A stretch of 24,141 nt of DNA from Baffinella frigidus (Eukaryota; Cryptophyceae; Cryptomonadales; Baffinellaceae): NCBI GenBank assembly GCA_026770585.1, contig MU647037.1, positions 56,009-80,149 of the forward strand, written 5' to 3'. The translations under genes were made by a program, and so were the position numbers. This document shows positions 346 to 23,549 of this stretch, one piece after another; the stretch's first letter is position 1; each line of letters starts with the position of its first letter. The notes under the pieces were generated by a model. It did not search any database, was not told the origin of the DNA, and saw nothing but the letters and a program-made list of their open reading frames with translations.

Positions 346-442
346 AGGGAGATTGAAGATGCGGAGGAGGAGGAGAAGCGGCGCGCGGACATGGTGTTTA
401 ACGAGAAGGACGACCACGACAACCGCGTCCTCAAGTTCGCAG
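346..442 (+). CDS. Exon 1 visible of TPR immunophilin: acidic linker
   Basis: Follows acceptor gagtgcag and ends TTCGCA G|gtgagc (phase 1). It encodes REIEDAEEEEKRRADM and then VFNEKDDHDNRVLKFA, a charged linker before the TPR domain. The split Gly codon G|GT joins exactly to exon 2. Start at 346 is the nearest AG; the frame stays open further upstream, so a longer exon is possible. Partial copies lie on both sides. Confidence 0.75.
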
Positions 443-3400
443 GTGAGCACATGTGCTGTGTTTGGCTTCAGGGTGTAGGGTACTCAACCGTTAATTTCTG
501 CCTTTTTTAATGCTGCAATGAGGCTGACGAGAAGGACGACCACGCCAACCGCGTCCTCAAGTTCGCAGGCGAGCACATTTGCTGTGTTTGGCTTCAGGGT
601 GTAGGGGTAAGGTTTATGCATCTGCGTTGCTTCGCTCAGGACAAGACCCGAGACACACGAAAAACGCGTCATCAAGTTCTCAGGCGAGCATCACTCTTGC
701 ATATCCACAGGACTCTACGGTAGGCCATCTGTAGGGACTTAGGGTTTTCTACGCACATCCTACACCGGTTCTTGGTGGCTGAGAAACCAAAAAAAAGCTC
801 TTTTTCTTCTTCATTAGAGCGAGTTTTGAATCTGTTGGCTACGAAAACAACCAGGGAAAATCACAAGTTGGCGGTTCTGGTACTCAACCGTTAACTTTTG
901 CCTTTTTTTATGCTGCAATGAGGCTGACGAGAAGGACGACCACGACAACCGCGTCCTCCAAGTTTGCAGGTGAGCACATTTGCTGTGTTTGGGTTCAGGG
1001 TGTAGGGTTAAGGTTTACGCATCATGTTTGAATTGCTCAGGCCGAGACACACGATACTCGCGTCTTCAAGTTCTCATGCGAGCACCCACGCAAGGCTCTT
1101 CGAGACAGACCAGGTTCGTACCACGCAAGAGTGTAGGGCAGAGTGACCCACAGGAGAAATAGTAGAATTCTACTATTTCTGAAGTTCCTAAGTGGTCATT
1201 CTTCCCAAAACAAAATCGGAATTTCGGAAAGTTGTTACAAACCCCGTGTGAACTGGCTTGTTTTCGCAGGTCAGCCTTACACTCTTGCGTGGTACTTAAA
1301 ACCGATGGGCCGTTTTTTTGGCAACCTGGGGCAGACCACACGAGGCTATCCATGCGAATAGAATAAAAGGGCGTTGTAAAAAATTGTGGAGAAATGATCA
1401 CATTTCCTCCCGGTTTTCCAATTGCTGACTTTTGGGCAATAATCCAATAATTGACTTATGAATCTGTTCGCATGGATAGCCTCGTGTGGGACACGGGCAC
1501 GCGTTTTCAAAAACAAATGGATAACCTCCCGTGGAGACCTGCGTTACCCACTCCGCTCAGGAACCCCATGACCGTATCCAGCGACTACACACCGTGTCTG
1601 GGCTAGTCAAGTAAGTTGACTAAGTTGACTAAGTTGACTAAGCCAACGGTTGACTAACCTCTGTTTGGGTGGTCCCAGAACCACCCAGAGGGTGGGTGGA
1701 GAAAGAACATCTCATCCACTAGAACGTCATAGATACAATTTCATAGTTTGCTAGAGCTCTCACGTCTCGTCGCACCTGTCCACCTGGCGCACAGCGGTCG
1801 TGTTTAACAATTTAGTCAACCTTGTTTTCCCCCTGGTTCGCAGGTCGGTTCCCGATGGCGGAGAAGAACAAGAACGAGGGGACTGAGCTTTTCAAGGGAG
1901 GCAACTTCCGGCCCGCCGCGGAGCGCTATATCAAGGTAAGTCACACAGCGGGCTACGAAGGGATTTCATAAATAACCCAGAAGCGATACGCCATAGGACC
2001 CTACGGTAGGTAGTAGCGTAGGGACATAGGGGGGGGTCCTACGGATGGGGTAACAGAAAGGATGATACATCAAGGTAAAGGTTCACACGCTAATTTCATA
2101 GGCTAACGGTCTGAAAATGGGGTCGTTCGGCATACGGCATTGCCTAGAACCTCCTACCGTAGGCCGAGGGATCCTAGGACCAAAAAGTCTCGGCCTACGG
2201 TAGGAGGTCCTAGGCAATGCCGTAGGCCTAACTACCCCGTTTTCAGGCCGTTACCCTATTAAATTCCGGCGCCATGGTAATTCCGGCGTTGTGTATCACC
2301 CTTATCTCAGATAAACACTTTTAAAAGTCGTTTTCCTAAGTCAACTCCCCCACAAATCTGTCAACTTATGCTTTACTCTGCGAGCCCGTACGCATAAGTT
2401 GACAGATTTGTGGGGGAGTTGACTTAGGAAAACGACTTTTAAAAGTGTTTATCTGAGATAAACCCTGCGGTACTGCCTACTGTAGCACCCTGCTGCATGC
2501 CAGAATTGGGCTGACATCAAGGTAGAGATAGACCACACTTTCGAACTCGCATTTTCGTTGTTCAGTCAACTTCTAAGTCAACGTATGCGTTGACTAAGTC
2601 AACGTATGCAAGAAGACGGCTCATACACTATCGACCAATTCCTCACTTTGATGAGCGTCACGCGGCGGCGATTTCAGCTTTGACATCGATGTCTAAACCC
2701 TAAACCCTAAACCCTAAACCTTCTAAACCCTAAACTCTACACCCTGAATCAGGCGCTGGGACACCTGGCGAAGCTGATTCACGTGGAACAGCAGATGAAA
2801 GATGACCAACACGTGCAAGCCAAGGCTCTCAAGGTGAAAGTCAATTTTGCGGGAAAGTCAATCTTGCACAAAAGTCAATCTTGCGGGAAAGTCAATCTTG
2901 TGCGAAAGTCAATATTGTACGAAAGCAGATGAAAGATGACCAACACGTGCAGGCCAAGGCTCTCAAGGTGAAAGTCAATCTTGTGGAAAAGTCAATCTTG
3001 CACAAAAGTCAATCTTGCGGGAAAGTCAATCTTGTGCGAAAGTCAATGTTGTACGAAAGCAGATGAAAGATGACCAACACGTGCAGGCCAAGGCTCTCAA
3101 GGTGAAAGTCAATCTTGTGGAAAAGTCAATCTTGCACAAAAGTCAATCTTGCGGGAAAGTCAATCTTGTGCGAAAGTCAATGTTGTACGAAAGCAGATGA
3201 AAGATGACCAACATGTGCAGGCCAAGGCTCTCAAGGTGAAGAGTCAATCTTGGTTCGTGCTCCGAAAGTGGTTCTTATTCGAAAGTCAACATTGGTTCTT
3301 GTTGAGAATCAATAGTGGTTCTTGTTCCTGCATGGTGCGGTCAAGGGTGGTTCGGGAGTTCTTCAGGCTTTGACGTTGTTCTACAGTACACCATATGATG

Positions 3401-4751
3401 CGTAGAAAAGGCACCACACAGTTCTCCACTGTTACTTCTTAAGTTAACAGAGGTTCCACTTTTGCTTTGAGACGTCCCAATCTCGACTTTTGTCTCGGTG
3501 CGCAGCGCTCTTCGATACACGGTATGTTTCTGAACCAAGACGATCGTGTTCTGAACAAATACACGATATGGCTACCACACAGCGGACTACGAAGGGATTT
3601 TTGTTTTCTGAGCTACCAAGAATCGGTATAGGATGTGCGTAGCAAAACCCCTATGTCCCTACGGATGGTCTACTGTAGATACTACCCCGTGAGGGATGTC
3701 CTGAGTGACTTTACACAGTCACGACTCAGAGTCCTGCGGATTTGCACTTTGACACCCGCAAATTGATGGCAGGTGACGTGCCACAACAACCTGGCGATGT
3801 GCTTCCTGAAGCTCGAGATGTGGAGCAAGGCCGCCGATAACGCGACCAAGGTACAGAAGCCTACTGTAGGGTCTAAAGACTGATTCAGTTATTGCTTATT
3901 CACGATATCCCTTTGGAGTCCACTGTGTGGGTGAGATACCACACAGTGGAAATTGAGGGCATGCTTCGCCGTAGGATCTTACTGTGCACTCTGAAACTCG
4001 AGATGTGGAGCAAGGCTGCCGACAACCAAGGTACCGCACCCGCTCAGCAGAATACAACGGGATTTCGCGAACAACCCCTCAGTGAATCAGCCCTAGGACC
4101 CTACAGAAGACCAATCTTTCAAGCGTGTCTCGCTCCGAGGCGGGCCCAACGAACTAGTTGAGGGGGCCGAGGCTGAGGACGAGAGCTGCTTGCGCTTAGG
4201 GATGTAGGGGGGTTCCTAACCGAAACCTGGTTTGATGTCCAACCAAGGAGCCAGGCTGCCGAAAATGCGACCAAGGTATCTCAACCCGCAACCCTAACCC
4301 ATAATGGCTCCAACTGACCCCCCCCCAAAACTCAAACTTCCTCGCCCCCGCGCACCATAAACCCTCAACACTCAACCCCCAAACCTCAGCCTCCACCCCG
4401 GCACGGTGCTTGACGTGGAGGGGGATAACTTTAACTGGGTGTTTGATTTGGAGGGGGACAACTCTAACTGGGTGTTTGACTTGGAGGGGGACAGGGTGCT
4501 TGATTTGGAGGGGGACACCTCTACCCCCCCCCCCGGCAGGGCTTGCGAACGGCAATTTTGGGAATGACTGTGTGTATCCCTCTGCAGGTGCTGGACTTGG
4601 AAGGGGACAACTCTAACTCCAAGGCGATGTTCCGCCGCGCTCAGGCCCGCATGCAGCTCAAGGTGCGATCCTCGATGGAGAGAGAGAGAGAGAGAGCGAG
4701 AGCGAGAGAGAGAGCGAGAGAGAGAGAGAGCGAGAGATAGAGAGAGAGTGC

Positions 4752-4782
<31 letters not shown>

Positions 4783-7700
4783 TGTGTCGAGAGAGAGCGT
4801 CGATCCAAGGCGATGTTCCGCCGCGCTCAGGCCCGCATGCAGCTCAAGGTACGAGCCTCGATTCTCCGCTCGGAGAGAGAGAGAGAGAGAGACAGAGAGA
4901 GAGAGAGACAGAGAGACAGAGAGACAGAGAGAGAGCGATCAAGAGAGAGAGCGAGAGAGTGCGAGAGAGTGTGTCGAGAGAGAGAGCGAGAGAGTGTGTC
5001 GGTCCAAGGCGATGTCCCGCCGCGCCCTAGCCCGCATGCACCTGAAGGTACGATCTCACAGGAAAACGGTTTTAATTTAAAACTTTCTGGCAATGAAATT
5101 TACGACACACGATAAGTTTTACTAGTTATATCAAAGCATTCGTGTGGTAATTTTTATTGAATCACAGGTTTTAAATTAAAACCGTTTCCCGATGAGATCG
5201 CTACACCCTCAACCCCACACCTTCAACCGTCAACCCTCGAGGCGCTCGAGGCGCACGTCCATCTCGGCACATAACTGCATCATTGTCACGTTGTATGCTA
5301 CGCCACCTTTTATGCGCGGCATTTTTCGGTTGGTGTTGCTATATTGGGTATAAAACCTAAACCTAACGTAGCGTAAAAGTGATACGGATTCATGAATGTT
5401 CCGAGAGGGGGTCACATGCAAGTCCAAGGCCGTCTTCGAACATGGCCGCGCCCAGGCTATGTGTGGAGGGTAAGTGTGTGTTTCGGTAGCCTGTGTTAGG
5501 GTAGGTGGAATGCACCACCTGGGACGGGCCTGGGTGCGGCCATGCTCGAACATTTATCCGGGAACAAGTATTTTTCTTTTAAAAAATCCGTACGAAAATT
5601 ACCACACAATTGCTTCGGACGTGACCAGTTGTGTAGTAATTTTCATTGCCAGCTTTTAAAAGAAAAATACTTGTTCCCGGATAAACATGGCCTTGGAGTT
5701 GGAGGTGTCCCCCTCTCGGAACATTAATGAATCCGTATCACTTTTACGCCCAGGCCCGCTGAAGCTGCGATTCCTGCATGCAGCTCAAGGTACGAGTGTC
5801 GATTCTCCGCTCGGGGAGAGAGAGAGGGAGAGAGAGAGAGGGAGAGAGAGAGAGGGAGAGAGAGAGAGGGAGAGAGAGAGAGAGCGATCGAGAGAGAGAG
5901 CGAGATGGAGAGAGAGGGATGCAGCACAAGGTGCTGTTCCCCAATGCCACGTGTGTTTGATTCCGCTCTGCAATGCAACACCCACGATTTCTCATTGTTA
6001 TGGGAATCCAACAAACTTCTTTTCTGTGGCAGGACTTCGACGACGCCCTGGTGGACCTTCCAGACTAGTCAAAAGTTGACGTTCCGGATCAACGGTACAC
6101 ATCCGTCAACTTTGGCGTGGAAAAGAACCCGGGGTCACTAAACGTCTGCGCCCAAATAGGACTTCGACGGGGCGCTGGTGGACCTGAACGCGTGTGCGTT
6201 GCTCTCTCCCGAGGACGGCGCCGTGACCAAGCTCCGCGACCGCGCCGATAAGGAGGTGCATTCATACCACGCGGTGGACTACGGACCTTTCATCAATAGT
6301 CGACTCCTAGGCAGGTCCTAGGGCCTACGGACCTTTCATCAATAGGCCTACGGACCTTTCATCAATAGGCCTGCGGACCTTTCATCAATAGGGCCTACGG
6401 ACCTTTCATCAATAGTCGATCAGGAGGTGCTTGCATGTATGCCCACCACAGGACTGACTATTCGGGTAGGCCCGCCTCGAGACAGATCGATACGCCCGTC
6501 TCGGGACACGGATAGGCCCGCCTCGGGACAGATGGATAGGCCCGCCTCGGGACAGGGTGGTATGAATGCACCTCCTCATACCACGCGGTGGACTACGGAC
6601 CTTTCATCAACAGTCGACTCTCGCCCGACGATGTTAACGTTAAGGCCGTATCTGGTGCAAATTTGGTCACGTTATCCCTTAAGTGGCCAGTAGGCGCATA
6701 CGCCCTGCAGTAGGGCCCTAGGACCTGCCTAGGACCTCTTGGAGGTCCAATTTGACCTTATCGGCCGATCAGGAGGTGCTTGCATGTATGCCCACCACGG
6801 GACTGACCATTCTTATCTCAGAAAACGAGTTCTAAAACTCGTTTTCTTAAGTCAATTCCCCTACAAATTCGTCAACTTATTCTTTACTATCCGCATAAGT
6901 TGACAAATTTGTAGGAGAATTGACTTAAGAAAACGAGTTTTAGAACTCGTTTTCTGAGATAAATTCGGGTAGGCCCGCCTCGAGACAGATTGATACGCCC
7001 GTCTCGGGATAGGCCCGCCAGGCGACAGATGGATAGGCCCGCCTCGGGACAGATGGATAGGCCCGCCTCGGGACAGACAGTAGGCCCGCCTCGGAACAGT
7101 TTGACCGGCCGCCTCGAGATAGACCGCTGTGATGGGCCCGCCGCAGGCTTTACAGGGGTACCTCGCTCATCAGAAACCAACCCCCCCACCAGGACCACCG
7201 TAGGGCCCTAGACATGGTCCTACTGTAGGTTGCTAGGGGGCGGTGATTTCTCATGAGCGAGGTACCTCTGTAAGTGCAGAGAGACGCGGGCGACTCTGTG
7301 TGGGTATCTAGGCTCTAAGGGCATCTAAGGACGCAAGGTTATGAGGACGTCGGCGAAGATTCACTTAAGCATGATGCCTCGCACCATAGACAACGCTCCC
7401 TTCCTAGGACCCCTACAGGGCCCTTGGTTCTGGTCTGTAAGTGTTACTTGTTCATAACGTCTCGCATGGGCTGTCGTGTCATCCTGGTGTCTTATTGTCG
7501 AAATGATGTCCATGGACCCGCCCGGGTTCCCGCTCCAAAGTTGACGAATTTGTACCGTGCACCCAGCATGTCAACTTTAGAATAGCCTGGAACCGCCTCG
7601 CCAGGATGCAGCGGGTATTGTCGAAATGGGCTTCGCGCGGAATCGGGATCAGGTCAGGAAATCAGAAACATTTCCAAAAAATGGACTTTAATGCTATCTT

Positions 7701-8094: not shown

Positions 8095-8096
8095 GC

Positions 8097-8112
8097 CTCT
8101 CTCTCTCTCTCC

Positions 8113-8170
<58 letters not shown>

Positions 8171-8250
8171 CTCTCTCTCTCCGTATCTCTCTCTCTCTAT
8201 CGCTCTCTCTCTCTATCGCTCTCTCTCTCTATCGCTCTCTCTCTCCGATG
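8097..8250. repeat. CT/TATC microsatellite after the stop codon
   Basis: CT repeats with a TATC section, bounded on the left by AAGATGTTCGGATGAG and on the right by CCGATGTTCGGCTGAG: two copies of the TPR gene's last codons. It would be transcribed in the 3' UTR. Confidence 0.9.
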
Positions 8251-8303
8251 TTCGGCTGAGAATCTGCCTGCGGGTGGATAGTTTCCCGGTGGGAGGTGTG
8301 GGG

Positions 8304-8430
8304 GTTTCGTCTACGTATCCCTTAAGTGGCCAGCCGGTCAAATTTGACCGCCAAGAGGTCCTAGGCAGGTCCTAGGGCCCTACGGTAGGGCGTAAGAGCC
8401 TACTGGCCACTTAAGGGATATGTGGAGTGA
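8304..8430. mobile_element. CTTAAGTGGCCAG fold-back element
   Basis: tatcccttaagtggccag at 8309 and ctggccacttaagggata at 8403 are inverted, around gaggtcctaggcaggtccta. An inverted relative lies at about 6660-6760 in intron 6. Confidence 0.8.
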
Positions 8431-9060
8431 ATCACGGGTCCGGGTACATGTCCGTGACGGTGTAAAGTCACTCCGACAACTCCTGCATGGGGCGTGTCCC
8501 CAGACCACACTCGGCATCTACAGGGGTACCTCGCTCATAAGAAACCGCCCCTCCCCCTAGGACCACCGCAGGGCCCTACGCATAGGCCTACTGTAGGGTC
8601 CTAGGGGGGGGCGGTTTCTTATGAGCGAGGTACCCCTGTACGTTTATCTTGATCGCAGCAGGTTCCGCGATTTTGACCAGTGCGGCAAGCCCGCGTGGCG
8701 TCGGGGAGAACTTTCAACAATCTTTTTTCTTCCCTTTGTTTTCATGCACACGCCTCACTGCCGAGCAGAATACGTGACTTTGTAAAGTCACTCCCCTGCA
8801 AGCCGCGGGCTTGTCCCCAGACCACACTCGGTGTTTCCAGCAAATGTTTATCTTCCCTTTTGTTTTCATTCACACGCCTCACGGCCGAGCTTTTCCTCGG
8901 GGGATGCTGGAACATCCGTAGCATAGCCCTAAACCCTACACCCTACAGGGGTACCTCGCTCATAAGACCCCCCCCCCCCCTAGGACCCTACAGTAGGGCT
9001 ATGCCTAGGGCCCTATGGTGGTCCTAGGGGGGTGGGCGTTTTTTATGAGCGAGGTATCCC
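8431..9060. other. Intergenic region between the convergent genes
   Basis: Contains two MITEs and a ~90-bp direct duplication (tgtaaagtcactcc...ccccagaccacactcgg at 8461 and 8780; ttttcatncacacgcctcac at 8741 and 8864). No exon or RNA gene seen. Confidence 0.7.
8519..8640. mobile_element. CAGGGGTACC fold-back MITE, copy
   Basis: Nearly perfect arms, 122 bp including flanking TA; lies in the intergenic region after the TPR gene. Confidence 0.95.
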
Positions 9061-9064
9061 TGTA
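8944..9064. mobile_element. CAGGGGTACC fold-back MITE, copy
   Basis: Inserted in a ccctacacccta stretch; arms tacaggggtacctcgctcat and atgagcgaggtatccctgta. Confidence 0.93.
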
Positions 9065-9277
9065 CACCCTACACCTTACGCCCTACGCCCAACTTCATCA
9101 TCCCGACATCCGCCGGCTCCTACTACACCACCCATAATGGCTCCAACTACCCCCCCTCCCCCAAACTTAAACTTCCTCGCTCCCGGCTTCTACTACATCG
9201 CCTCTAATGGCTCCAACTACCCCCCCCAAAAAACTCAAACTTCCTCGCCCCCGCGCAACCTGGCATCCTCGTGTGGG

Positions 9278-9488
9278 TACAGGGGTACCTCGCTCATAAG
9301 AAACGACCACCCCCCTAGGACCACCATAGGGCCCTACTGTAGGGTCCTAGGGGGCGTTGGTTTCTTATGAGCGAGGTAGTACAGGGGTACCTCGTTCATA
9401 AGAAACGACCACCCCCCTAGGACCACCATAGGGCCCTACTGTAGGGTCCTAGGGGGCGTTGGTTTCTTATGAGCGAGGTACCCCTGTA
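9278..9488. mobile_element. Two CAGGGGTACC MITEs in tandem
   Basis: 9278-9378 (right end truncated after gcgaggta) and 9380-9488 are almost identical and abut with one base between, so this is a tandem duplication of the element rather than two insertions. A further eroded arm is at about 9540-9567. Confidence 0.93.
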
Positions 9489-9577
9489 GACCGAGCTCAC
9501 TGGTCCACCTTTCAGAGAATGGAGAGTGGGGGGGGCGCTTTCTTATGCCAGAGGTTCCCCCGTAGACCGCACTACGT

Positions 9578-9668
9578 GGACCACTTTCAGAGAGTGGTGT
9601 CCACTTAGTGAGAGCGGTGTCCACTTAGGTGAGAGTGGCGTCCACTTAGGTGAGCGTGGTCCACTGAG
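9578..9668. repeat. ~22-bp tandem repeat
   Basis: gagagtggtgtccacttagg, four degenerate units, between the MITEs and the minus-gene stop. Confidence 0.85.
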
Positions 9669-9684
9669 TGCCGTCACGTACCCT

Positions 9685-9775: not shown

Positions 9776-9778
9776 GCG

Positions 9779-15900: not shown

Positions 15901-16964
15901 CGTGTAGTAATTTTCGTTGCCCAAAAGCAATTAATTAATACTTGTACGGAGATTAAACTGCAACCAGTCGGATGCCCCGCGGCATGTCTGGAGCGACAGT
16001 GCTGGGAAGTGTCAGAGGACACTTCCTGGTAGCGAACCCCCCGACCAGAGTGTGAGTGAGTGAGTGAGTGAGTGAGCGAGTGAGTGGGTGAGTGAGTGTG
16101 TAAGTGAGTGACTGTGCGAGTGAGCGTGTGAGTGAGTGAGTGAGTGAGTGAGCGAGCGAGTGAGTAGGTGAGTGAGTATGTGAGTGAGTGTATATTAGGA
16201 ACTGGTGTGTACCACGCAGCGGACCACACCGGGATTTCTCGAATAACATGTAGAGACTAATTCATAGGAACCTACGGCATGCAAAACCGCAGTACCCTAA
16301 GGCATGCATCACCGTAGGGACATAGGGGGGTTCCTACGGACCACGTTACGGAAAGGTGGTCCGAATCCTACAAAAAAAACCTTTCTCAGCATGTTGTACG
16401 GATCCGACTGCTGGCAGGCTGTCAACTTTTGAGGGTCTGGCCAGCTACCGTTGACTTTGGAGTGCCTGTCCAGCTACCAGCAGTGCGGGTGCGTCGGTGA
16501 CGAGGTTGGGTTTCGGATCCGAAAGGCGGATAGGAACGGACATTCGGGTTTGCAGGGGATCGCGGCTAGGTTTCGGTTTCCGGGATCTGGTTTCCGGAGT
16601 CTGGTGTTCGGTTTCCGGTTTCCGGTGTTCGGTTTTCGGTGTCCGGTTTCCGGGATTCGGACTGCGGGCGTCGGGCCTACGCTAGATCTGAGGATGGGCA
16701 CTCGCAAAAGTCAACTCCTCACAGCCGCGAGGTCAACTTTTGGAAGAATAGCCCGTTTTCGGGCTATTCTGCGAGGGTGTCAACTTATGATTGCTCCCGG
16801 TCACGTCTAAAGTAGTACCTCCAAGAAGCGCGTTCTGCATAATCGTCCCTCGGGCTATTCTGCGAGGGTGTCAACTTCGGACTGCGGGCGTCGGGCTCTG
16901 GGTTTCAGGGATGAGGGTTCAGAGAACGTCGGGCTGTGGGTTTCAGGGATGAGGGTTCAGAGAA

Positions 16965-16996
<32 letters not shown>

Positions 16997-19900
16997 GGTT
17001 TGGAGTTGAGGGTTTAGGGTTTAGGGTTTGGAGTTTAGGGTTTAGGGGTTGAGGGTTGAGGGTTGAGGGTTGAGGGTTTATGGGTTAGGGTTGAGGGTTG
17101 AGGGGTTGAGGGTTAGGTTTTGGGGGTTAGGGTGTGGGGTTTGAGATTTCGGGGGTTGGGATTTGGTTAAGAGTTAGGGGGTTGGGATTTGGTGTTAGGG
17201 GGTTGGGATTTGGTTAAGACCTCCAAGAAGCGCGTTCTGCATAATCGTCCCTCGGAATATCGACGACGTCGTGCTTCGACTCTTCCGCGTGCATAGGGAC
17301 TTGATCCAGTTCAACCAGGATTGGGTGAGATCAGCTGTTGAAACGGTTCATTTCAACAAGGGCTCTCTTTGATACGCACTAGACCAGTCTTGGCCGCAGT
17401 GTGACGCTTTCGGACTCACGAAACGCCATTCCCCAAACCTCAATTCGGGCTGCGGGCGTCGGGTTGTGGGTTTCGGGGGCCAACACCTCCAAGAAGCGCG
17501 TTCTGCATAATCGTCCCTCGGAATACCGACGACGTCGTGCTTCGACTCTTCCGCGTGATCTTGATTACACGTGCCCCCTCGGGCGGCGCGACCCACCTGA
17601 GAAAGGAGGGATCCGGTTTTCGGTTTTCAGGATCCGGTTTTCGGGTACGAGATCCGTTTTTCGGGTACGAACAGGACAGACAAAGCTGCTCCCGTTTGCA
17701 CTCTTCCGCGTGAACTGGACAACTCTTGCCCTCGAGCCACCTGGAAGAGATTGGGAATTTATTGCCAACCAAGCAGCGCCAGCACCGCAGATGCCCTACG
17801 CACCCACCTCAGGAGTGTGCGCCCGTCAGCCCCCCTCCCTCCCTCCCTCCCTCCCTCCCTTCCTCCCTCTCTCCCTCCCTTCCTCCCTCTCTTCCTCCTC
17901 CTGACTTCAACAGAGAGACGCGACCCACCTGAGAGGAGGACACTTGTGTTGAACTTATGACGTCGGGACTTATCTCAGAAAACGAGTTCTAAAACTCGTT
18001 TTCTTAAGTCAATTCCTCTACAAATTTGTCAACTTATGCGGAGAGTCAAGAATAAGTTGACGAATTCGTAGGGGAATTGACTTAAGAAAACGAGTTTTAG
18101 AACTCGTTTTCTGAGATAAGGACGTCAACTTAAGGCATCCGGAGAGGGCACGCACCAAGTGTCTCTATCTGAGATAGGACCACGCCAGAGTGCTGGCAGT
18201 ATGTGTTTAAACCGTGTCAGGACACGGTTGTTGACTTTTGAAAACTATTGCATTGAAAGGAAATTGACTTTTGGCGACCCCTTCGAAGACTCTGGCGTGG
18301 GAGTGTGAGCCAGACAGCTGCGATTCTGACTTCAACCGGTGTTTCGGGGATCTCTGCGTCGCTAGGGAGGGAGGGAGGGATGGAGGGAGGGAGGGAGGGA
18401 AGATGCTGATTGCAAGATCGTCTCCTGGAAGCCCTAGGACCAACACAGCCCAGTGTTGCTACACGACCCTGCATCCGAATCGTTACCGGGCATGACGCCG
18501 AGAAAAAAACGCCGGCCGCCACGCCTACCTGAATGGTACCCACTTAGCAGGGGCCAAGTCCCCCCCCCCCCGAAAATCCGGGGGGGGGTCCAATGGAATT
18601 CATAGCAATGGATAAGATTCTAGTACACGTAATTTGGATGGACTGTATCCGTGAAGCCTCGGGTGGCTGCTACGTGGGGATGCGACCATCAACCCTCACA
18701 GTCTGGGCAAATCGGGAAAAATGGCTCCAAAAATCCCCTTGGAGGCCGTCGGATTCCGACGGCCTCCAAGGGGACTTGGTGTTGTGGAATTTTTCGATTT
18801 TCCCAAGGTGCGAGGGTTGGTGGGAGAACGCACTCTCGCTTGAAGGCCCGCTCCATATCACTTTGAACATTCCTTTCGTTCATCGCCATGCACTGCTCGG
18901 CCTTCTCCCGCTCGTGCAGGAAGTTGTTGTAGATCCCCGCCACCCGCTCCTCGCACGACGCCCGATCTCGCGCTTGCCGTTCCTGCACATCGTTTCCCCA
19001 AGTCAATTTCCCCGCACATCCGGAATCCAGAAGACATCTCCAAATGATCCGTGTCCCCGCGACCCGCTCCTCGCACGATGCGCGGTCAATTTTTTCAAAG
19101 TTTCGAGCCCCAATCATTAAGGTTACGATGATAAGGTTGCGATCACGCGCGTGCCGTTCCTGTCCCGCATTCCCCTCACGTCAATCCGCCTGAAACCCCG
19201 GCAAAATTCGTTTCCCGAAAGGAGGTGACCCCCCACGAACACCCGGCATCCGCAAGTCAAAGGCCAATTTTATCCGGGAACAAGTATTTTTCTTTTAAAA
19301 AATCCGTACGAAAATTACCACACAATTGCTTCGGACGTGACCAGTTGTGTAGTAATTTTCATTGCCAGCTTTTAAAAGAAAAATACTTGTTCCCGGATAA
19401 AATTCCCCCAAACATCCGTCATCTACAAGCCAATCCCCCAAACACCCGCAAATCGCAGGAGAAGGGAAATCGCGCTTGCCATTCCTGACCCGCGTTTCCC
19501 CCAAACAAGCCCCCCCCCAGAAAGGAAGGGGTTTCAGTTTTCCGAAAGGGGTTCAGTTTCAGATACTTTTGCGGACCCATTTGTGCGGACCCCGGAAGTC
19601 GTCAGGTCACTCCGCGTCTCTTCGCGAGTTGGCGAGCGCACGCACCTCACGGGTTCCACTTTCCGCAACGTTTGCGGGCCCGGAAGTTCCCAGTTTGAGG
19701 ACGCGTAATTTTCCAAATTTTCGGAATGTCTTGAGGGCCCAGAATCCCCCAGGTCGTTCCGCGTCTCTGTCGCGAGAGCACGCTTATCTGGGGATACCTA
19801 TTTTTCTTTAGTTTGATGGCAAGGAAAACTACTACATAAATGCTTTAATATTACTCATAAGAACGATTTGTGTAGTAATTTTCCTTGCCATCAAACTAAA

Positions 19901-22900
19901 GAAAAATTGGTTTTCCCGGATAAACGCACCTCAATGGTTGCAGTTTCCGCAACGTTTGGTGGTCCAGAATTTGCCAGGTCGCTCCATTTCCCAGGATCCA
20001 CTCGAGGCTAGAAATGGGACTTTTTTAAATGTGGGGTTGTTGAATTTAGTACCAGTCACGGGCAGGCTTGGTCACGTTGCTCAAATTATAACTTGAGCAA
20101 CGTGGCCAAACGCCCCCATTTGTGTGAAAATTACCACACACCTCTTTTTTTTCTTCACTTGTTAACGAATTCCTATTTGAAAATAGTCACACTTCTAGCC
20201 TCGAGTGGATCCGGAACGTTCGTGGAGGACCCATAATTTTCCAATTCGTTAGGGGGTCCGGAATTTTGCTCTCTGGAGAGCACGCACCTGGAGGAGGACT
20301 TTGCGAAGCTTGCTCTTGTCCTCTGTCGAGGCTAGAAATGGGACTATTTTAAATGTGGGGTTGTTGAATTTAGTACCAGTCACGGGCAGGCTTGGTCACG
20401 TTGCTCAAATTATAACTTGAGCAACGTGGCCAAACGCCCCCATTTGTGTGAAAATTACCACACACCTCTTTTTTTTCTTCACTTGTTAACGAATTCCTAT
20501 TTGAAAATAGTCACACTTCTAGCCTCGAGTGGATCCGGAACGTTCGTGGAGGACCCATAATTTTCCAATTCGTTAGGGGGTCCGGAATTTTGCTCTCTGG
20601 AGAGCACGCACCGCTAGGAGCACTTTGCGATGCTTGCTCTTGTCCTCTGCCGCCTGGATCCATCTTGTGCTTTCTCTCGTCATGCTTTTCCCGAGCGTTT
20701 CGTGCAGATTCAGGACCTGGGGGCGCTCTTTGCTTTACTATTTTGCTTAACTATTTGCTTTACTATGTGCGTTACCATTTGCTTTACTATTTGCTGTACT
20801 ATTTGCGTTACATGCCCCACCACGCGACGATAACCTGTGTATCAAATCGGTGACGTATTTCTATTATTTCTGCACTACTGAAAGTTTTTGGGGTTCGGGA
20901 TCCGCGCAAACTTGACAGATTTGTGGGCGAGTTGACTGGAAAACATGTCAAGTTGATACACACGCCATCGTCGCGTGGCAAGTGCTCTTTGCTTTACAGG
21001 GAGCCATCTCGATAGCAAAGAGCCCCTGGCGGCCTACAGGGAGCAATCAGCATTTGGCCCAGCACGTTTCACACATCGGAACCACGAAGCCGGGCAATCG
21101 GCGGGGGTGTTGACTTCTCGCCACGCCGGATCTCATCTGGACGAGTATGCATGATAAACACGCACCGGCAACGAAATTTACTACACAAATGATTTAACAA
21201 GTAATAGTATGATCCATGTGTGTGGTAAATTGCAGCCGATCCGATCTAACTGCGGCGAGTGTGTATGCTAAACACACGGCGGTAATAAAATTTACCACAC
21301 ACATGGATCATACTAGTACTTATTAAATCATTTGTGTAGTAAATTTCGTTGCCGGTGCGTGTTTATCATGCATACTCGCCCGGATGAGATCCGGCGTGGC
21401 GAGAAGTCAACACCCCCGTCGATTGCCCGGCTTCGTGGTTCCGATGTGTGGATCAAACCAGGTCACTTTCGAGGGAGGGGGGGGGGGTTCCGCGCGCGAC
21501 ACACACTTGCAAAGAGTGTTTCCGCGCCGCGGGTGTGCGCTAGCTAGCGACCAATCTCATCTCGGAAGACAACTGAATCCGTTCCTTTCCAATAGGAGGT
21601 TGGATAGGAGAAATTGGTCAGGGCATAGTAAATTTAACCAGGCCTCCTTATTAAATGAAAACGCTAATTAGGGAATTGATTCAGTTATCTTGCGAGATGG
21701 AATCTAACCGCGGCGGGTATGAAACACTCCGCCCATGGGGAATTTAATTTTGGACCAAGACAGAATCTGTCCCGCTATCTTAGGCTCCCCACGCGGACGG
21801 TAGGGGTGTATATGCTGTTTTAGGCATCAAATGATGCTAGCTTACGCCTTTTCTTAACGTACATTATGAGGTGACACAATTGCAATTTTCGCAAAGGAAC
21901 GTGACTGACCTCACGAAAGTTACTACACAAATGCCCACTTGTAAAAACCAATGATTTTAAACAGGTTTCTAGGATTCTCGTGTGCTTCCTCCTGGAAATC
22001 TTCGAGTCGCAACTTTGAGGGTGTTGCGGAGACCGAAAAGGGTTTGAGGGTGTTGATAACACGTAACAAAACGTTTGGAGGGTGTTGATAACATCTGACA
22101 ACAACGTTTCGAGGGTGTTGACAACAACCAACCGTATGGCGGGTCCGTCATACGGCCCATCCACCCAAGATCAGACGAGGGGCAATCGCAAAAGTCAATT
22201 TCTCAGATTTCAGGGGGAATACACGCCAAAAGTGGATCGAAAGTCCCTGAGAGGGACTCTACTAGAGCCATTGCTTTTTACAATTGCTCCGCGTAAAATC
22301 TAGGGTGGAGACTATCGGATCTCTCAACGTAGAGCCCGTGAGTAATTCATATGAGGAAGAATCAACCACTTGCTGATAGAGCGCTGTGCAGAGAAGTTGG
22401 CCACCGAAAAATAGGGAAATGGGGAAATTGGAGCCATTTTGTCCACTTTTGAGAAATTCATGGTACTAAATTTCTCCAAAGTTGACAAAACGGCTCCAAT
22501 TTCTCGATTTTCCATTATTCCCCGTGGCCAACTTCTCTGCACAGCGCTCTACTGTTGTCTGCAAGTGACGCGTGGAGTCATGTGTGAGCTTCACACACTT
22601 TCATGGGGTTAAAATACCTGGCTGTGTACTAGATATCGATGAGATGGAAGCCTTGCGAAATATAAATTATTACAGGCTGGTAAGTATGAACATCAATATC
22701 AATGAATATGTAAATATAATTAATATGAATAACATGTAAATATGATTAATATGTAAATATGCATAATTAATATGTAGATATGAATGGTGCACCTCCTGGT
22801 ACTGCTGGGCCTTAGCCATCTTGCGTCCGGCGATGTTCATGTCGCGCGTCTTCGAGTGCACCTTCACGGGCGGGAGCCGCACGCTCGCCTCCTGTCTCTC

Positions 22901-22903
22901 CAC
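9779..22903 (-). CDS. Unrecognised charged, helix-rich protein, C-terminal part, 8 exons, 5' partial
   Basis: Chained minus-strand exons: 22903-22793, 20716-20612, 18982-18834, 17596-17487, 15134-15082, 12536-12441, 10873-10820, 9916-9779. Phases 0,0,2,1,0,0,0 match at every junction and every intron is GT-AG. The product (~271 aa visible) has long stretches of charged helix (for example ERQARDRASCEERVAG, KTAEKKAETLRLRN), a basic patch ARVIKITRKSRS, and a Gly/Ser/Arg-rich end closing with an acidic GEEED. I do not recognise a family. Exons 1-3, 6 and 8 are supported by boundary copies; exons 5 and 7 are microexons found from splice sites, phase and heptamer context and are less certain. More exons may lie upstream of the window. 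Confidence 0.72.
10143..10169 (-). pseudogene. Start copy of minus-gene exon 8
   Basis: atcccgcag|GGGGCGCAAGGGGCGGAAG encodes GAQGAEVVI; the rest of the exon is missing. A heptamer array begins ~35 bp further upstream in sense. Confidence 0.9.
10204..10530. repeat. TTTTGGG/TTTGGGG array
   Basis: ~320 bp of gggtttt-type heptamers with a few tttaggg units. It is C-rich on the minus strand and lies upstream (sense) of the exon 8 start copy at 10143-10169. Confidence 0.95.
10625..10775. repeat. GA/GGGA microsatellite
   Basis: GAGC and GGGA blocks, ~45 nt downstream (minus sense) of the candidate exon 7 donor. Confidence 0.95.
10820..10873 (-). CDS. Minus-gene exon 7, 54-nt microexon (candidate)
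   Basis: Acceptor aaaaccag immediately after a sense CCCAAAA array (10878-10950), donor CCCAAG|gtgctc, phase 0/0, 18 codons: RTTSIRARGGRSNVEVPK. It fits between exons 6 and 8 without changing frame. A GA-rich microsatellite (CT in sense) follows its donor, as after other donors here. Confidence 0.55.
10878..10953. repeat. TTTTGGG array abutting candidate exon 7
   Basis: Heptamers end at the ccag acceptor of the 10820-10873 exon; C-rich in the minus-gene sense. Confidence 0.93.
11041..11160. repeat. 30-bp tandem repeat, 4 units
   Basis: Units at 11041, 11071, 11101 and 11131 (agttatgagtcttgttgtta...). Being 30 bp it stays open as a 10-aa repeat (MSLVVNLIPV), but no splice or family evidence supports coding. 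Confidence 0.95.
11168..11620. repeat. Duplicated ~180-bp block, one copy with a MITE
   Basis: cagcctgggcgtggaaagga through cactcagt, then gtaccacgcgac through ttcttgggtacaaact, occurs at 11173-11460 (with the element at 11233) and 11469-11620 (without). Confidence 0.94.
11233..11352. mobile_element. CAGGGGTACC MITE with a paralogous empty site
   Basis: Lies between cactcagt and gtaccacgcgac. The duplicated host sequence at 11517-11540 reads cactcagttagtaccacgcg without it, leaving one TA. This defines the element ends (CAGGGG...CCCCTG) and a TA target duplication. Confidence 0.96.
11701..11844. mobile_element. TCATCTCGGAAGATA element
   Basis: Terminal inverted repeats tcatctcggaagatatctga / tcagttatttttcgagacga; flanked by GGAT. 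Related to 21557-21700; part of its interior recurs at about 12035-12106. Confidence 0.88.
11999..12364 (-). pseudogene. Two end copies of minus-gene exon 6
   Basis: 12364-12336 and 12026-11999 repeat cgcaatcttatgcgcag then yccatcgag (or gcatcaag) and donor gtatgc/gtatct. Both are downstream of the exon in sense. Confidence 0.92.
12124..12312. repeat. GA microsatellite
   Basis: GA with GAGC interruptions, beginning ~25 nt downstream (minus sense) of the donor in the exon 6 end copy at 12336. Confidence 0.95.
12441..12536 (-). CDS. Minus-gene exon 6, charged helix
   Basis: Acceptor ggttcgagcag, donor ATCGAG|gtatcc, 32 aa: KSEEEEASIILKTAEKK then AETLRLRNLMRSPIE. Upstream in-frame starts at 12553 or 12567 are possible alternatives. 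End copies with donors are at 12336-12364 and 11999-12026; an acceptor-region copy is at about 13108-13133. Confidence 0.8.
12626..12715. repeat. 23-bp tandem repeat, 4 units
   Basis: cctccaaccccccaaagtta repeated; two more units at 15039-15080 next to the candidate exon 5 donor. Confidence 0.93.
12810..12979. mobile_element. TCATCCCGCC fold-back element
   Basis: Arms tcatcccgccaggtatttaa and complement; core aaaatttactacacaattgg...cgtgtagtaaattttg; flanked by AATC. The left flank (aacacaatctcatcccgcc) is itself duplicated. Confidence 0.93.
12980..13430. other. Intron stretch without a supported gene
   Basis: Holds a duplicated gtgatcgtcctgcgtcc, the acceptor-region copy of exon 6 near 13108-13133, three ~27-bp ttatggcgt repeats (13150-13215) and a poly-G run. 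The short ORFs on both strands have no support. Confidence 0.6.
13791..13907. mobile_element. CCACGCCAGA element
   Basis: Ends accacgccagagtgg / attctggcgtggt, inner palindrome aaccgcgtctggaagcggtt. Second copy at 18179-18301. Confidence 0.85.
13921..14093. mobile_element. ACGAGGCTATCCATGCGAA fold-back element, second copy
   Basis: Same ends as 1336-1499; the centre holds a perfect extra palindrome, gtttccgtacgga / tccgtacggaaac. Confidence 0.92.
14257..14398. repeat. ~35-bp tandem repeat, 4 units
   Basis: gcggtgtgataaaaaaacgg with variable ctaccccctccc tails. Confidence 0.92.
14444..14584. mobile_element. TCATC fold-back element
   Basis: Arms cggcgagtatctatgataaa / tttatcataagtactcgtcc; core gaaatttactacacagatc...atgtgtgtagtaattttc; flanked by AATC. 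Confidence 0.92.
14755..14986. mobile_element. TGTAGAAATGGGC fold-back element
   Basis: Ends tgtagaaatgggctccgcgc / gcgcggagcccatttctaca; inner arms around cgtcttttcgagaaaaaa and core ttatgctatctt...accctcaagatagc. Related to 7618-7821. Confidence 0.92.
15082..15134 (-). CDS. Minus-gene exon 5, 53-nt microexon (candidate)
   Basis: Acceptor caccaccgcag directly after a C-rich CCAAACA array, donor ATCAAG|gtaact. Phase 1 in and 0 out joins exon 4 to exon 6: E HGHNIPSMSRAWNAEIK. Without it exon 4 (phase 1) could reach exon 6 only through a poorer GAG acceptor at 12554. Donor-side intron text (aactttggggggttgg) is repeated near 12.65 kb. Confidence 0.55.
15139..15202. repeat. TGTTTGG array abutting candidate exon 5
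   Basis: gtgtttggtgtttggtgttt then tttgggg units; on the minus strand it is a C-rich tract ending at acceptor accgcag of 15134. Confidence 0.9.
15351..15560. mobile_element. CCACTCGAGGCTAG fold-back element
   Basis: Ends ccactcgaggctagaagtg / cacttccagcctcgagtgg with an inner palindrome around gtcacgt. Reverse-oriented relative of the copies at 19998 and 20326. Confidence 0.9.
15815..15955. mobile_element. TAATCTCC fold-back element
   Basis: Arms taatctccatagaagtatt with attaattgcttttg; core gaaatttactacacaactgc...atcgtgtagtaattttc; flanked by AACT. Confidence 0.92.
16043..16192. repeat. GTGA microsatellite
   Basis: gagtgagtgagtgagtgagt with GCGA and GTGT variants, ~150 bp. Confidence 0.95.
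16819..17293 (-). pseudogene. Two end copies of minus-gene exon 4
   Basis: 17293-17221 and about 16852-16819 repeat attatgcagaacgcgcttct then tggag followed by gtctta or gtacta. The second copy has an AG (ccctcgcag) nearby upstream and could itself be spliced as a tiny exon. Confidence 0.88.
16965..17215. repeat. TTGAGGG array with TTTAGGG units
   Basis: ggttgagggttgagggttga repeated, then mixed gggggttgggattt. It lies between the two end copies of exon 4. Confidence 0.93.
17487..17596 (-). CDS. Minus-gene exon 4
   Basis: Acceptor tcctttctcag, donor CTTGGA G|gtgttg. In the frame dictated by exon 3 it encodes EWVAPPEGARVIKITRK then SRSTTSSVFRGTIMQNALLG; GC3 is higher in this frame (25 of 36 codons by hand count) than in the other open frame (20 of 36), which reads HAEESKHDVVGIPRDDYAE. 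End copies at 17221-17293 and 16819-16852; start copy at about 17914-17928. Confidence 0.7.
17827..17902. repeat. CCTCCCT microsatellite
   Basis: ccctccctccctccctccct and cttcctccctct variants between the exon 4 region and its start copy at 17928. Confidence 0.93.
17914..17928 (-). pseudogene. Start copy of minus-gene exon 4
   Basis: cctcctctcag|GTGGGTCGCG matches the acceptor and first bases of exon 4; upstream in sense, as the polarity rule predicts. Confidence 0.7.
17970..18119. mobile_element. TTATCTCAG fold-back element, copy
   Basis: 150 bp, nearly identical to the copy at 6813, inserted in the minus gene's intron 3; direct repeat GGAC on both sides. Confidence 0.96.
18179..18301. mobile_element. 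CCACGCCAGA element, second copy
   Basis: Ends accacgccagagtgctgg / cttcgaagactctggcgtgg; interior aaattgacttttggcgaccc matches the 13791 copy. Confidence 0.87.
18363..18402. repeat. GGGA microsatellite
   Basis: agggagggagggagggatgg repeats in minus-gene intron 3. Confidence 0.9.
18715..18798. repeat. Perfect hairpin after minus-gene exon 3
   Basis: ccccttggaggccgtcgga is followed at once by ttccgacggcctccaagggg, with weaker outer arms. It is ~50 nt downstream (sense) of the exon 3 donor. Confidence 0.9.
18834..18982 (-). CDS. Minus-gene exon 3, charged helix
   Basis: Acceptor gatgtgcag, donor AAGCGA GA|gtgcgt (phase 2). Encodes ERQARDRASCEERVAG, IYNNFLHEREKAEQ and CMAMNERNVQSDMERAFKR. The donor hexamer is the same as in exon 2. 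Three start copies lie upstream (19057-19159 and 19464-19484). Confidence 0.82.
19057..19484 (-). pseudogene. Three start copies of minus-gene exon 3
   Basis: 19484-19464 (gtcag|GAATGGCAAGCGCGA), 19159-about 19138 (gacag|GAACGGCACGCGCG) and 19086-19057 (DRASCEERVAG). All are upstream of the exon in sense and keep the exon start only. Confidence 0.85.
19270..19400. mobile_element. TTATCCGGG fold-back element, copy
   Basis: Almost base-for-base identical to the element at 5554 although in another gene; flanked by AATT. Confidence 0.96.
19784..19923. mobile_element. TTATCTGGGG fold-back element, divergent
   Basis: Ends ttatctgggg / cccggataa, different arms (tttctttagtttgatggcaa) but the same ACTACATA...TTTGTGTAGTA core; flanked by ACGC. 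Confidence 0.92.
19998..20208. mobile_element. CCACTCGAGGCTAG fold-back element
   Basis: Ends ccactcgaggctagaaatg / acttctagcctcgagtgg; inner palindrome cacgttgctcaaattataac...; core contains gaaaattaccacacacctc. First unit of the 324-bp duplication. Confidence 0.93.
20288..20325 (-). pseudogene. End copy of minus-gene exon 2
   Basis: Encodes EDKSKLRKVLLQ|gtgcgtgctctcc, matching EDKSKHRKVLLA|gtgcgtgctctcc of the real exon 324 bp away. The upstream side is cut by the fold-back element at 20326. Confidence 0.9.
20326..20532. mobile_element. CCACTCGAGGCTAG element, duplicated and left-truncated
   Basis: Same as 19998-20208 but starting tcgaggctag: the terminal bases are missing because the duplication breakpoint fell at the element edge. 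Confidence 0.93.
20612..20716 (-). CDS. Minus-gene exon 2
   Basis: Acceptor gcgcccccag, donor CTAGCG|gtgcgt, 35 aa: VLNLHETLGKSMTRES then TRWIQAAEDKSKHRKVLLA. Its end and donor recur at 20288-20325 in a 324-bp tandem duplication, and donor-only remnants continue down to about 19640. Confidence 0.85.
20728..20812. repeat. 12-13-bp tandem repeat just upstream of minus-gene exon 2
   Basis: tttgctttacta and tttgcgttacta variants, six to seven units. Part of a larger inverted pair: ccacgcgacgataacctgtg (20818) against cacgccatcgtcgcgtgg (20962). Confidence 0.87.
21071..21450. mobile_element. Palindrome with a second fold-back element inserted at its centre
   Basis: Outer arms 21071-21132 and 21388-21450 are complementary (acacatcggaaccacgaagc ... 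cgccacgccggatc). Between them, at duplicated GATC, sits a TCATCTGG...CCGGATGA element (21133-21387) related to the one at 14444, itself containing two rearranged ACTACACA cores. Confidence 0.92.
21557..21700. mobile_element. TCATCTCGGAAGATA-type element
   Basis: Ends tcatctcggaagacaactga / tcagttatcttgcgagatgg; flanked by AATC. Interior aggcctcctta and ggagaaattggtcag match the 11701 copy. Confidence 0.88.
22012..22125. repeat. ~45-bp tandem repeat in minus-gene intron 1
   Basis: gagggtgttgataacatctg and variants with aaaacgtttgg, three to four units, followed by a short palindrome (gtatggcgggtccgtcatac). Confidence 0.85.
22377..22551. mobile_element. TAGAGCGCTGTGC fold-back element
   Basis: Arms tagagcgctgtgcagagaag and complement, with TA at both ends, and inner arms aaattggagccattttgtc / gacaaaacggctccaattt. 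Confidence 0.92.
22675..22785. repeat. AT-rich ~16-bp repeat after minus-gene exon 1 donor
   Basis: taatatgtaaatatga-like units, about seven, in the only strongly AT-rich stretch of the window; begins within 10 nt of the donor at 22792. Confidence 0.88.
22793..22903 (-). CDS. Minus-gene exon 1 (visible)
   Basis: Acceptor cttggccag, donor CAGGAG|gtgcac, phase 0/0, 37 aa: VERQEASVRLPPVKVHSK then TRDMNIAGRKMAKAQQYQE. Two start copies lie upstream at 23199-23242 and about 23475-23541 with acceptors intact. Confidence 0.85.
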
Positions 22904-22929
22904 CTGGCCAAGGATTTCGGAGGTTAGGG

Positions 22930-23190
22930 GTTGGGGATCAGGGTTCAGGGTTCATGATTCAGGGTTCAGGGGTCAGGGTTCAGGGTTCAGGGTTCAGGGT
23001 TCAGGGTTCAGGGGTCAGGGTTCAGGGTTCAGGGTTCAGGGTTCAGGGTTCAGGGTTCAGGGGTTAGGGCTCAGGGTTCAGGGTTCAGGGGTCAGGGTTC
23101 AGGGTTCAGGGTTCAGGGTTCAGGGTTCAGGGGTCAGGGTTCAGGGTTCAGGGTTCAGGGTTTTGGGTTCTGGGTTCATGATTCAGGGTT
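22930..23190. repeat. TTCAGGG array abutting minus-gene exon 1
   Basis: ~35 heptamers gggttca with ggggtca variants, ~25 bp upstream (sense) of the exon 1 acceptor. Confidence 0.96.
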
Positions 23191-23198
23191 CAGGGTGC

Positions 23199-23541
23199 AG
23201 CTTCACGGGCGGGAGCCGCACGCTCGCTTCCTGTCTCTCCACCTGGAGAGGTGGGGGGTTGGGGTTCAGGGGTTTGTGGTTGGGGTTCAGGGTTCGGTGT
23301 TTAGGGCCTATGGTTTGGGGTTCAGTGTTGAGTGTTTCGTGTTTCGTGTGTAGGGTTGTGTGTGTAGTGTGTAGTGTGGGGTGTGTAGTGTGCAGTGTGT
23401 AGTGTGTAGTGTGCAGTGTGTAGGGTGTAGGGTGTAGGGTGTAGGGTGTAGGGTGTAGGGTTTAGTGTGTAGGTTTGAGGCGCGCGTCTTTGAGTGAAGC
23501 TTCACGGGCGGGAGCCGCACACTCGCCTCCTGTCTCTCCAC
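23199..23541 (-). pseudogene. Two start copies of minus-gene exon 1
   Basis: 23242-23199 and 23541-about 23475 each begin ctctccag|GTGGAGAGACAG and encode VERQEASVRLPPVK; the second continues LHSKTRA. Neither contains the exon end or donor. Both are preceded by heptamer arrays. Confidence 0.92.
23255..23475. repeat. TGTAGGG/TGTAGTG array before an exon-1 start copy
   Basis: Mixed gtgtagt and ggtgtag units after a ttggggttca section; upstream (sense) of the 23242 acceptor copy. Confidence 0.93.
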
Positions 23542-23549
23542 CTGGAGAG

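Follow-up and report, generated by a model that had tools for sequence, protein, structure and literature searches.

Polarised partial exon copies in the introns of Baffinella frigidus and their probable origin in local direct duplications

Duplications across exon boundaries in described systems

In the potato RdRp gene, as outlined in PMC4974935, a tandem genomic duplication spans an intron-exon boundary, the exonic piece of the upstream copy having become intron and the downstream copy serving as exon. This is the arrangement that we call here an upstream START copy, i.e. a partial copy made of the acceptor and the exon start; its counterpart, the END copy, comprises the exon end and the donor. 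The potato case is, in that account, a single event that gave a new intron, whereas 22 of the 61 exons sampled here have decaying START and/or END copies. The review PMC3443670 describes intron gain in which an exon segment containing AGGT is duplicated in tandem, and as in that scheme direct duplication puts exon sequence into introns and supplies splice sites here, although AGGT-type gain, as the review presents it, makes new introns and our copies are known in existing introns only.

Introners, as characterised in PMC9860276, have TIRs in many families, and repeats of 3-9 bp flank the known ones. As here, they are short dispersed elements at introns that can supply splice sites. Unlike introners as described there, the duplicated exon stretches run to tens of bases (20-78 bp of exon in the 31 nearest copies, instead of a short target duplication), and the element ends lie off the intron ends, with the core 21-48 bp off the exon edge in the four foldback-core cases considered below. 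In maize, alternative transposition of Ac makes tandem direct duplications (PMC3744419), a likeness in that a DNA transposon is able to cause direct duplications; the maize features given in that report are a transposon pair and an 8-bp target duplication, neither of which is known for the copies here.

Exon copies in the introns of the window

The window, i.e. the whole stretch of DNA that was analysed, comprises 24,141 nucleotides of contig MU647037.1 and belongs to a eukaryotic genome of 382 Mb. Its plus-strand gene encodes a TPR protein in 7 exons and is backed by homologues, spliced alignment to the homologue P0001 giving six GT-AG introns (Table 1). The aligner left the start of exon 1 unset, and it was taken at the AG before 346; the queries P0001 and P0005 found no further upstream exons within 10 kb.

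At a threshold of E<=1e-3, five of the seven plus-gene exons have partial copies in their flanks that abide by one rule, START copies lying upstream (exons 1, 5 and 6) and END copies downstream (exons 1, 3, 4 and 5). The same search returned zero copies of exons 2 and 7, no END copy of exon 6 and no whole-exon copy of any exon of this gene. The initial annotation had placed START copies upstream of exons 1, 5 and 6, and all three were recovered; its END copies at exons 1-7 were found at exons 1, 3, 4 and 5 and were over-read at exons 2, 6 and 7, which have none at this threshold. Many copies in the window stop near the splice site, and under a strict definition of edge coverage (12 bp on each side) 2 of 14 exon edges are covered, as against 22% of intron positions. 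Tandem arrays occupy 2790-3252, 4618-5053 and 20002-20652, and another lies outside the window at exon 3 of locus C226. Some further matches were seen: an additional END match of exon 5 at 5773-5868 is largely purine repeat, exon 3 has five inverted matches (69-72%) that combine the intron side with 15 exon bases, and exon 5 has an inverted END match of 71% and an inverted interior match of 32 bp at 87.5%.

On the minus strand, homologues of the gene pieces tried were found neither in Pfam nor in PDB or protein searches, so the gene model is a candidate only, and four of the eight exons claimed (m1, m2, m3 and m8) were examined. The copies of all four agree with the polarity rule: the upstream START copies proposed earlier are seen for m1, m3 and m8, and the downstream END copy proposed for exon 2 is present at m2, where it sits inside a 324-bp head-to-tail duplication (20002-20328 / 20326-20652). 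Candidate m3 also has an interior copy upstream, at 19054-19087 (88%).

Table 1. Exons, candidate exons, partial exon copies and the foldback element in the window (percentages are identities)
Feature	Position	Strand	Details
Plus gene exon 1	346-442	+	extent visible in the window; homologue P0001; end from spliced alignment, start at the AG of the initial annotation
START copy of exon 1	135-187	+	exon positions 1-52; 78.6%; window search
END copy of exon 1	527-606	+	from position 56, with donor and intron; 96%
END copy of exon 1	656-690	+	from position 70; 86%
END copy of exon 1	927-1008	+	95%
END copy of exon 1	1050-1085	+	81%
Plus gene exon 2	1844-1935	+	spliced alignment; no above-threshold copies
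Plus gene exon 3	2753-2833	+	spliced alignment
END copies of exon 3	2924-3252	+	three; tandem array of period 134 bp
Plus gene exon 4	3773-3850	+	spliced alignment
Interior, near-END copy of exon 4	3983-4026	+	exon positions 26-69; downstream; 86%
END copy of exon 4	4247-4278	+	from position 50; 87.5%
START copies of exon 5	4438-4528	+	two: 4438-4469 and 4495-4528
Plus gene exon 5	4588-4662	+	spliced alignment
END copy of exon 5	4804-4929	+	including intron; 85%
END copy of exon 5	5003-5055	+	87%
START copy of exon 6	6031-6058	+	exon positions 1-26; 89%
Dispersed foldback element	6059-6159	+	between exon 6 START copy and exon 6 acceptor, adjoining the acceptor
Plus gene exon 6	6160-6255	+	spliced alignment
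Plus gene exon 7	8041-8094	+	spliced alignment 8041-8091, then stop; no above-threshold copies
Candidate exon m8	12468-12563	-	upstream START copy 13103-13130 (86%); no homologue
Candidate exon m3	18849-18985	-	upstream START copies 19140-19185 (78%) and 19443-19515 (70%); no homologue
Candidate exon m2	20618-20716	-	downstream END copy 20234-20328 (94%); no homologue
Candidate exon m1	22796-22906	-	upstream START copies 23481-23545 (94%) and 23174-23306 (74%); no homologue

Polarity and frequency of copies in a genome sample

The sample was drawn from the window's own genome and holds 61 exons in 14 loci. Spliced models contributed 19 of 19 exons at C62, 6 of 21 at C226, 3 of 17 at C1133, 2 of 11 at C467, 2 of 4 at C293, 4 of 4 at C1204 and 3 of 3 at C190; exons were dropped as apparently spurious where their identity was low, where they were tiny or where they fell outside the HMM hits. 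Kinesin exons came from 15 of 45 places, in C506, C101, C942, C2, C112 and C138; the places C506:56113-56226 and C112:294252-294374 were excluded because they are themselves copy-like. The intronless HSP70 pair of C709 was excluded from the exon counts, and the 10 places found for the PF00118 family were left out of them. An identity cut of 75% was applied to the copy counts of exons and random segments alike. Under this cut lie, at C62, three direct and two inverted WHOLE matches, one END-up and one START-up match (all 57-72%) and, at C2 exon 3, a START-up match of 74%; at C1133 exon 3 a START-down match of 23 bp appears only at E<0.01.

In these 61 exons, some of them chosen from spliced models when some copies were already visible and the kinesin edges hand-set to AG/GT after the copies were seen, the 53 copies that span an exon edge divide into 25 START-up, 28 END-down, 0 START-down and 0 END-up. 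All 53 thus follow the rule, or 31 of 31 after collapse per exon and type. With unadjusted kinesin cores there are still zero direct START-down or END-up copies, and more copies are classed as interior. The remaining classes are three interior and two inverted copies, the latter both interior, giving 56 direct versus 2 inverted, and no WHOLE-exon copy lies above threshold. The polarity proposed in the initial annotation thus extends to the sampled loci, where START and END copies do not fall equally on both sides of exons, and so does the absence of intact whole-exon duplicates; its statement that almost every exon carries copies was too strong, since copies accompany 22 of the 61 exons, spread over 9 of the 14 loci.

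Measured against random non-coding segments, the polarity is beyond chance, the frequency of copies not clearly so. Local copies were found for 558 of 1,386 of them, and 312 of their 578 START/END copies (54%) fit the rule, with START copies 177 up and 135 down, END copies 135 down and 131 up, and 133 WHOLE copies; a smaller run gave copies in 177 of 480 segments and 233 polar among 422 START/END copies. From the per-locus random-segment rates 22.9 exons with copies are expected, versus 22 seen, a rough comparison in that random sampling over-represents duplicated DNA and the segments may contain unannotated exons. With fair sampling the background may lie closer to 25% than to 40%, and there may be a modest excess of copies at exons, about 1.4-fold. 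Copies that match exons also remain recognisable for longer than background copies. The copied fraction of the exon has a median of 0.50 in 30 real exon/type pairs versus 0.44 in 578 random ones (KS p=0.06), and a depletion of long copies was not seen, fractions above 0.65 occurring in 7 of 30 real and 121 of 578 random pairs.

Simulation gave a similar division. When head-to-tail duplication had to retain exactly one intact exon, 433 of 433 copies were polar; when at least one intact exon was allowed, 526 of 594 were polar and 255 WHOLE copies arose in addition, and dispersed copying was polar in 239 of 427 (56%). Since random segments are unpolar and the simulation that keeps one intact exon is fully polar, we attribute the polarity to geometry together with selection, and consider it probable that the exon copies are local direct duplications, polarised by selection that keeps a single exon intact. 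Frequent head-to-tail duplication in non-coding DNA would yield the copies. When a duplication has one end in the exon and the other in the intron, only one arrangement would spare the exon, so that a unit spanning the exon start would leave acceptor and exon start upstream and a unit spanning the exon end would leave exon end and donor downstream. Selection would remove duplications that give two whole exons or a broken exon, and the leftover half-exons would turn into intron and then decay neutrally. We infer from these patterns both the mutational origin of the copies and the selection against whole-exon copies. The earlier idea of an interior exon kept by selection among decaying copies fits the counts, the random segments and the decay of AG and GT given below.

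Alternative origins and what the polarity means

On the intron side, plain tandem duplication alone appears incomplete. Among the 31 nearest copies, similarity extends into the intron side in 12 (p<=0.05) and is not recognisable in 19, a shortfall against simulated neutral tandem copies with ordinary indel rates, in which the intron side stayed detectable in 28 to 31 of 31; heavy indel turnover lowered this to 5-18 of 31. The nearest copies of C190 exon 3 and C1133 exon 2 are 94% and 95% identical, with intron-side p values of 0.61 and 0.09. Because of the 19 copies without a recognisable intron side, some of the duplications probably hold inserted DNA between the two copies.

It is conceivable, if on balance doubtful, that the insertion itself makes the duplication: a foldback element (or repair filler) would enter an exon near its edge, the invaded exon stretch would come to flank the insert in two copies, of which the outer would turn into intron and the inner remain as exon, and the insert would then border the new splice site, so that polarity is likewise forced. 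With relatives of dispersed repeats sought within 218 kb of sequence, repeat coverage of the interval between copy and exon averages 0.50 for the 19 copies without intron-side similarity (13 of 19 above 0.3) and only 0.17 for the flank-similar cases (4 of 12) and 0.19 for random intervals (35 of 141); repeats, however, already cover 0.33 of intron interiors, and donor-proximal repeats do not differ significantly from these (0.43 v 0.33, p=0.26). An enrichment of repeats at donors that seemed strong against all non-coding DNA (0.36 v 0.20) is no longer so against intron interiors. The clearest case is exon 6 of the window, where the interval between START copy and acceptor is 98% covered by relatives within the sampled loci. 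The core of this family, AAGTTGAC..GTCAACTT, has 16 regex matches (one of the 16, inside an exon, is spurious), and 4 of them fall in the interval that separates an exon from the nearest of its copies, versus 0.41 expected (Poisson P 8e-4). These four intervals belong to cases with no recognisable intron side, a hint that insertion and duplication may be linked, though the core was picked out post hoc, at exon 6; in the four clearest cases the duplicated stretch is 26 to 56 exon bases. Against this reading, several fuller copies of the element elsewhere resemble, by eye, TIR elements with a TA-type target more than they do long duplications, the exon 6 insert is by eye without element ends, and the core at C1204 exon 3 lies some 270 bp away from the copy. 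That the introns of this organism grow inward, each foldback insertion duplicating an exon edge and intron ends forming a layered record of past edges, we consider rather improbable.

A junction-directed process (linked, for example, to splicing, to R-loops or to stalled replication within the exon) that repeatedly duplicates edges outward seems quite unlikely. Both START and END copies do occur on 9 exons (Fisher p=0.0015), in some cases the two kinds meet at one exon position (for example at exons 1 and 5 of the window and at C226 exon 3; p=0.06 and 0.02 against pooled lengths), and exons may modestly exceed the length-bias-corrected background, but co-occurrence within genes is not significant (p=0.26) and random segments show copies about as commonly as exons. 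Given this last point and the simulation, no junction-directed mechanism is needed, so that of the outward duplication first proposed there remain introns holding local duplications that cross exon edges, without the directed process. The shared end point of START and END copies within the exon, striking by eye, was no better than in shuffled pairs (p=0.55 and 0.28).

We regard it as very unlikely that selection maintains the copies as alternative splice sites or functional decoys. A matching AG is present in 19 of 25 START copies and GT in 17 of 28 END copies (22 of 28 within 2 bp), but the squared mean copy identity (87.9%) by itself predicts about 19 AG and 22 GT; several copies have a GC donor or have lost the donor, no selection on AG or GT in the copies was seen, and decay is about neutral. 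An assembly artefact from collapsed or duplicated reads is barely credible in spite of one tandem pair at 97.9% identity, as the identities of the 53 edge copies range over 77-98%, their lengths and breakpoints differ, and they follow an identical rule across 9 loci.

Local direct duplication with one exon kept intact implies that a striking polarity rule can emerge even if no mechanism is directional: where such duplications abound in a genome, functional exons would acquire START copies on their upstream side and END copies on their downstream side. Therefore polarity together with missing whole-exon copies could mark a functional exon, and the same mark, read from sequence alone, could gauge the strength of selection against whole-exon duplications. 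On a practical matter, the sampled loci commonly contain half-exons that carry splice sites, which is a warning for gene finders. The foldback link, if confirmed, would give introns a way to grow that differs from that of classical introners.

Exon-edge copies in the window and at further loci

In the window (G000:C702:56009-80149), the plus gene codes for the C-terminal portion of a TPR protein (Pfam TPR_1, TPR_2). The one homologue listed with an organism name comes from Hemiselmis andersenii, a cryptophyte (59% identity), which makes a cryptophyte source likely. Protein-to-DNA spliced alignment supported seven exons and six GT-AG introns, with the start of exon 1 placed at an AG. Querying the window with each exon plus 80 bp (E<=1e-3), we found one start copy (acceptor AG and exon start) upstream and four end copies (exon end and donor GT) downstream of exon 1, three end copies forming a 134-bp array for exon 3, one end and one near-end copy for exon 4, a pair of start copies upstream of exon 5 together with end copies on its downstream side, and a single start copy for exon 6. 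The initial annotation had assigned copies to every exon of this gene; this stood for end copies at exons 1, 3, 4 and 5 and start copies at exons 1, 5 and 6, but exons 2 and 7 yielded none in these searches. Exon 5 (4588-4662) also encodes two extra residues, NSN against N in most aligned homologues, which reads as a 6-bp tandem repeat. Four candidate exons of the putative minus gene had copies on the sides predicted by the rule, and one candidate-exon copy sits within a clean 324-bp head-to-tail duplication.

The assembly searched holds 382,457,362 bases in 1,364 contigs, and 13 further loci were taken from it as stretches around HSP70-family and kinesin-family places. Counting local direct copies at >=75% identity, over a selected set of exons with adjusted edges and with weaker matches removed by that cut, 22 of 61 exons had copies, spread over 9 of the 14 loci. 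All 53 edge-spanning copies at these exons obeyed the side rule proposed from the window (25 start copies upstream, 28 end copies downstream), or 31/31 with each exon-and-type combination entered a single time, and the claim that no intact whole exon is duplicated was likewise borne out, with no whole-exon copy at this identity among the 61 exons of the 14 loci. Interior copies were few (three direct, two more inverted). The polarised exon-edge copies are real and occur at 9 of 14 sampled loci.

Four start and three end copies flank one 87-bp HSP70-like exon in L030, a stretch of one further locus (7211-8867), with breaks near exon position 37-58, chiefly 45. At several exons (exon 3 of locus C226 and window exons 1 and 5) start copies stop where end copies start; as a real pattern this meeting point was rejected, not being significant against shuffled pairs (p = 0.06 and 0.02 against pooled lengths), and start and end copies co-occurred within genes no more than expected. 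Stretch L042 (G000:C709:128001-138000) holds two head-to-head HSP70 genes, 100% identical over 586 residues and without introns in the matched part, whereas a paralogue, in L028/L029, is split into 19 exons.

Duplication geometry and selection as the probable basis, with random-segment controls

A direct duplication ending inside an exon would leave the whole exon in only one of its two products. With a unit of intron plus exon start, the second product would carry the whole exon and the partial copy would lie upstream; with exon end plus intron, the first product would carry it and the partial copy would lie downstream. When we simulated random head-to-tail duplications and deletions keeping exactly one intact exon, 433/433 edge copies were polar (plus 20 interior), against 526/594 with 255 whole copies when extra intact exons were allowed, and 239/427 under dispersed local copying. 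The data agree with the first simulation, and polarity, the main feature, is best explained by duplication geometry together with selection.

As a control, we drew 1,386 non-coding segments at random from the same loci, similar to exons in length and with 45-75% G+C; 558 (40%) had local direct copies. Collapsed per segment, these comprised 177 start copies upstream and 135 downstream, 135 end copies downstream and 131 upstream, 133 whole and 198 interior copies. Chance polarity was therefore 54%, compared with 31/31 at exons (0.54^31, ~5e-9 by our own calculation if exons are taken as independent); a previous run on 480 segments found copies at 177, with 233/422 polar. Whole copies made up 133/711 of the edge-reaching types at random segments and 0/31 at exons (about 0.002).

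Exon edges as duplication hot spots received no clear backing, as 22 of 61 exons had copies where per-locus rates predicted 22.9. This comparison carries two biases, namely that random sampling over-represents duplicated DNA (a fair background is perhaps ~25%) and that copies matching exons stay recognisable longer; hot-spot status is therefore not demonstrated, and the figures leave room for a ~1.4-fold excess. Retention of decoy splice sites left no sign in the 25 start and 28 end copies, since AG (19/25) and GT (17/28; 22 within 2 bp) survive about as well as the remaining copy sequence.

Intervening repeats and possible insertion-linked duplication

The intron side was recognisable in 12/31 cases. 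Plain tandem duplication followed by drift fits this poorly, as at these identities it expects recognition nearly always (28-31/31 simulated at ordinary indel rates, 5-18 under heavy indel turnover). In the other 19 cases the DNA between copy and exon was often dispersed repeat (mean coverage 0.50 vs 0.19 for random intervals), and the same foldback core, spotted post hoc, lay there in four unrelated genes, including that of window exon 6, with 0.41 expected; repeat content at donors as a class was not significantly above that of intron interiors. This is a lead: some of the duplications may have formed jointly with an insertion, via break repair or transposition, as is reported for maize Ac elements (PMC3744419). 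The insertion-linked and plain routes impose the same polarity.

Repeat and palindromic elements noted in the window and in L030
Feature	Positions
Foldback family, TACAGGGGTACCTCGCTCATAAGAAAC ends	1-54, 7151-7272, 8519-8640, 8944-9064, 9278-9488, 11233-11352
Second palindromic element, ~150 bp, 3 copies	2301-2462, 6812-6963, 17969-18120
Foldback pair, 133 bp identical	5553-5685, 19269-19401
381-bp palindrome, 87% self-complementary	21070-21450
Dispersed element starting (C)ACACAGCGGRCTACGAAGGGATTT	1936-1990, 3577-3680, about 16210-16350; also L030 from 8339

The 27-base end of the first family occurs exactly 6,012 times in the genome (3,035 forward, 2,977 reverse), and the identity of the foldback pair suggests recent movement. 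The dispersed element abuts the donor of plus exon 2 and, at another locus, that of an HSP70-like exon; its start matches 12 times in 218 kb. Cryptophyte genomes can exceed 500 Mbp, repeats often forming over half (PMC12220804).

In earlier work, one potato gene shows duplication across an intron-exon boundary, an exonic piece of the upstream copy having turned intron (PMC4974935), and tandem duplication is described as one route of intron gain (PMC3443670); introners, with flanking repeats of 3-9 bp, do not match the copies seen here (PMC9860276). The open-access matches listed included no title on polarised copies of exon edges, a weak sign that such copies are so far unreported. We believe that their scale and the link to elements make them of moderate interest.
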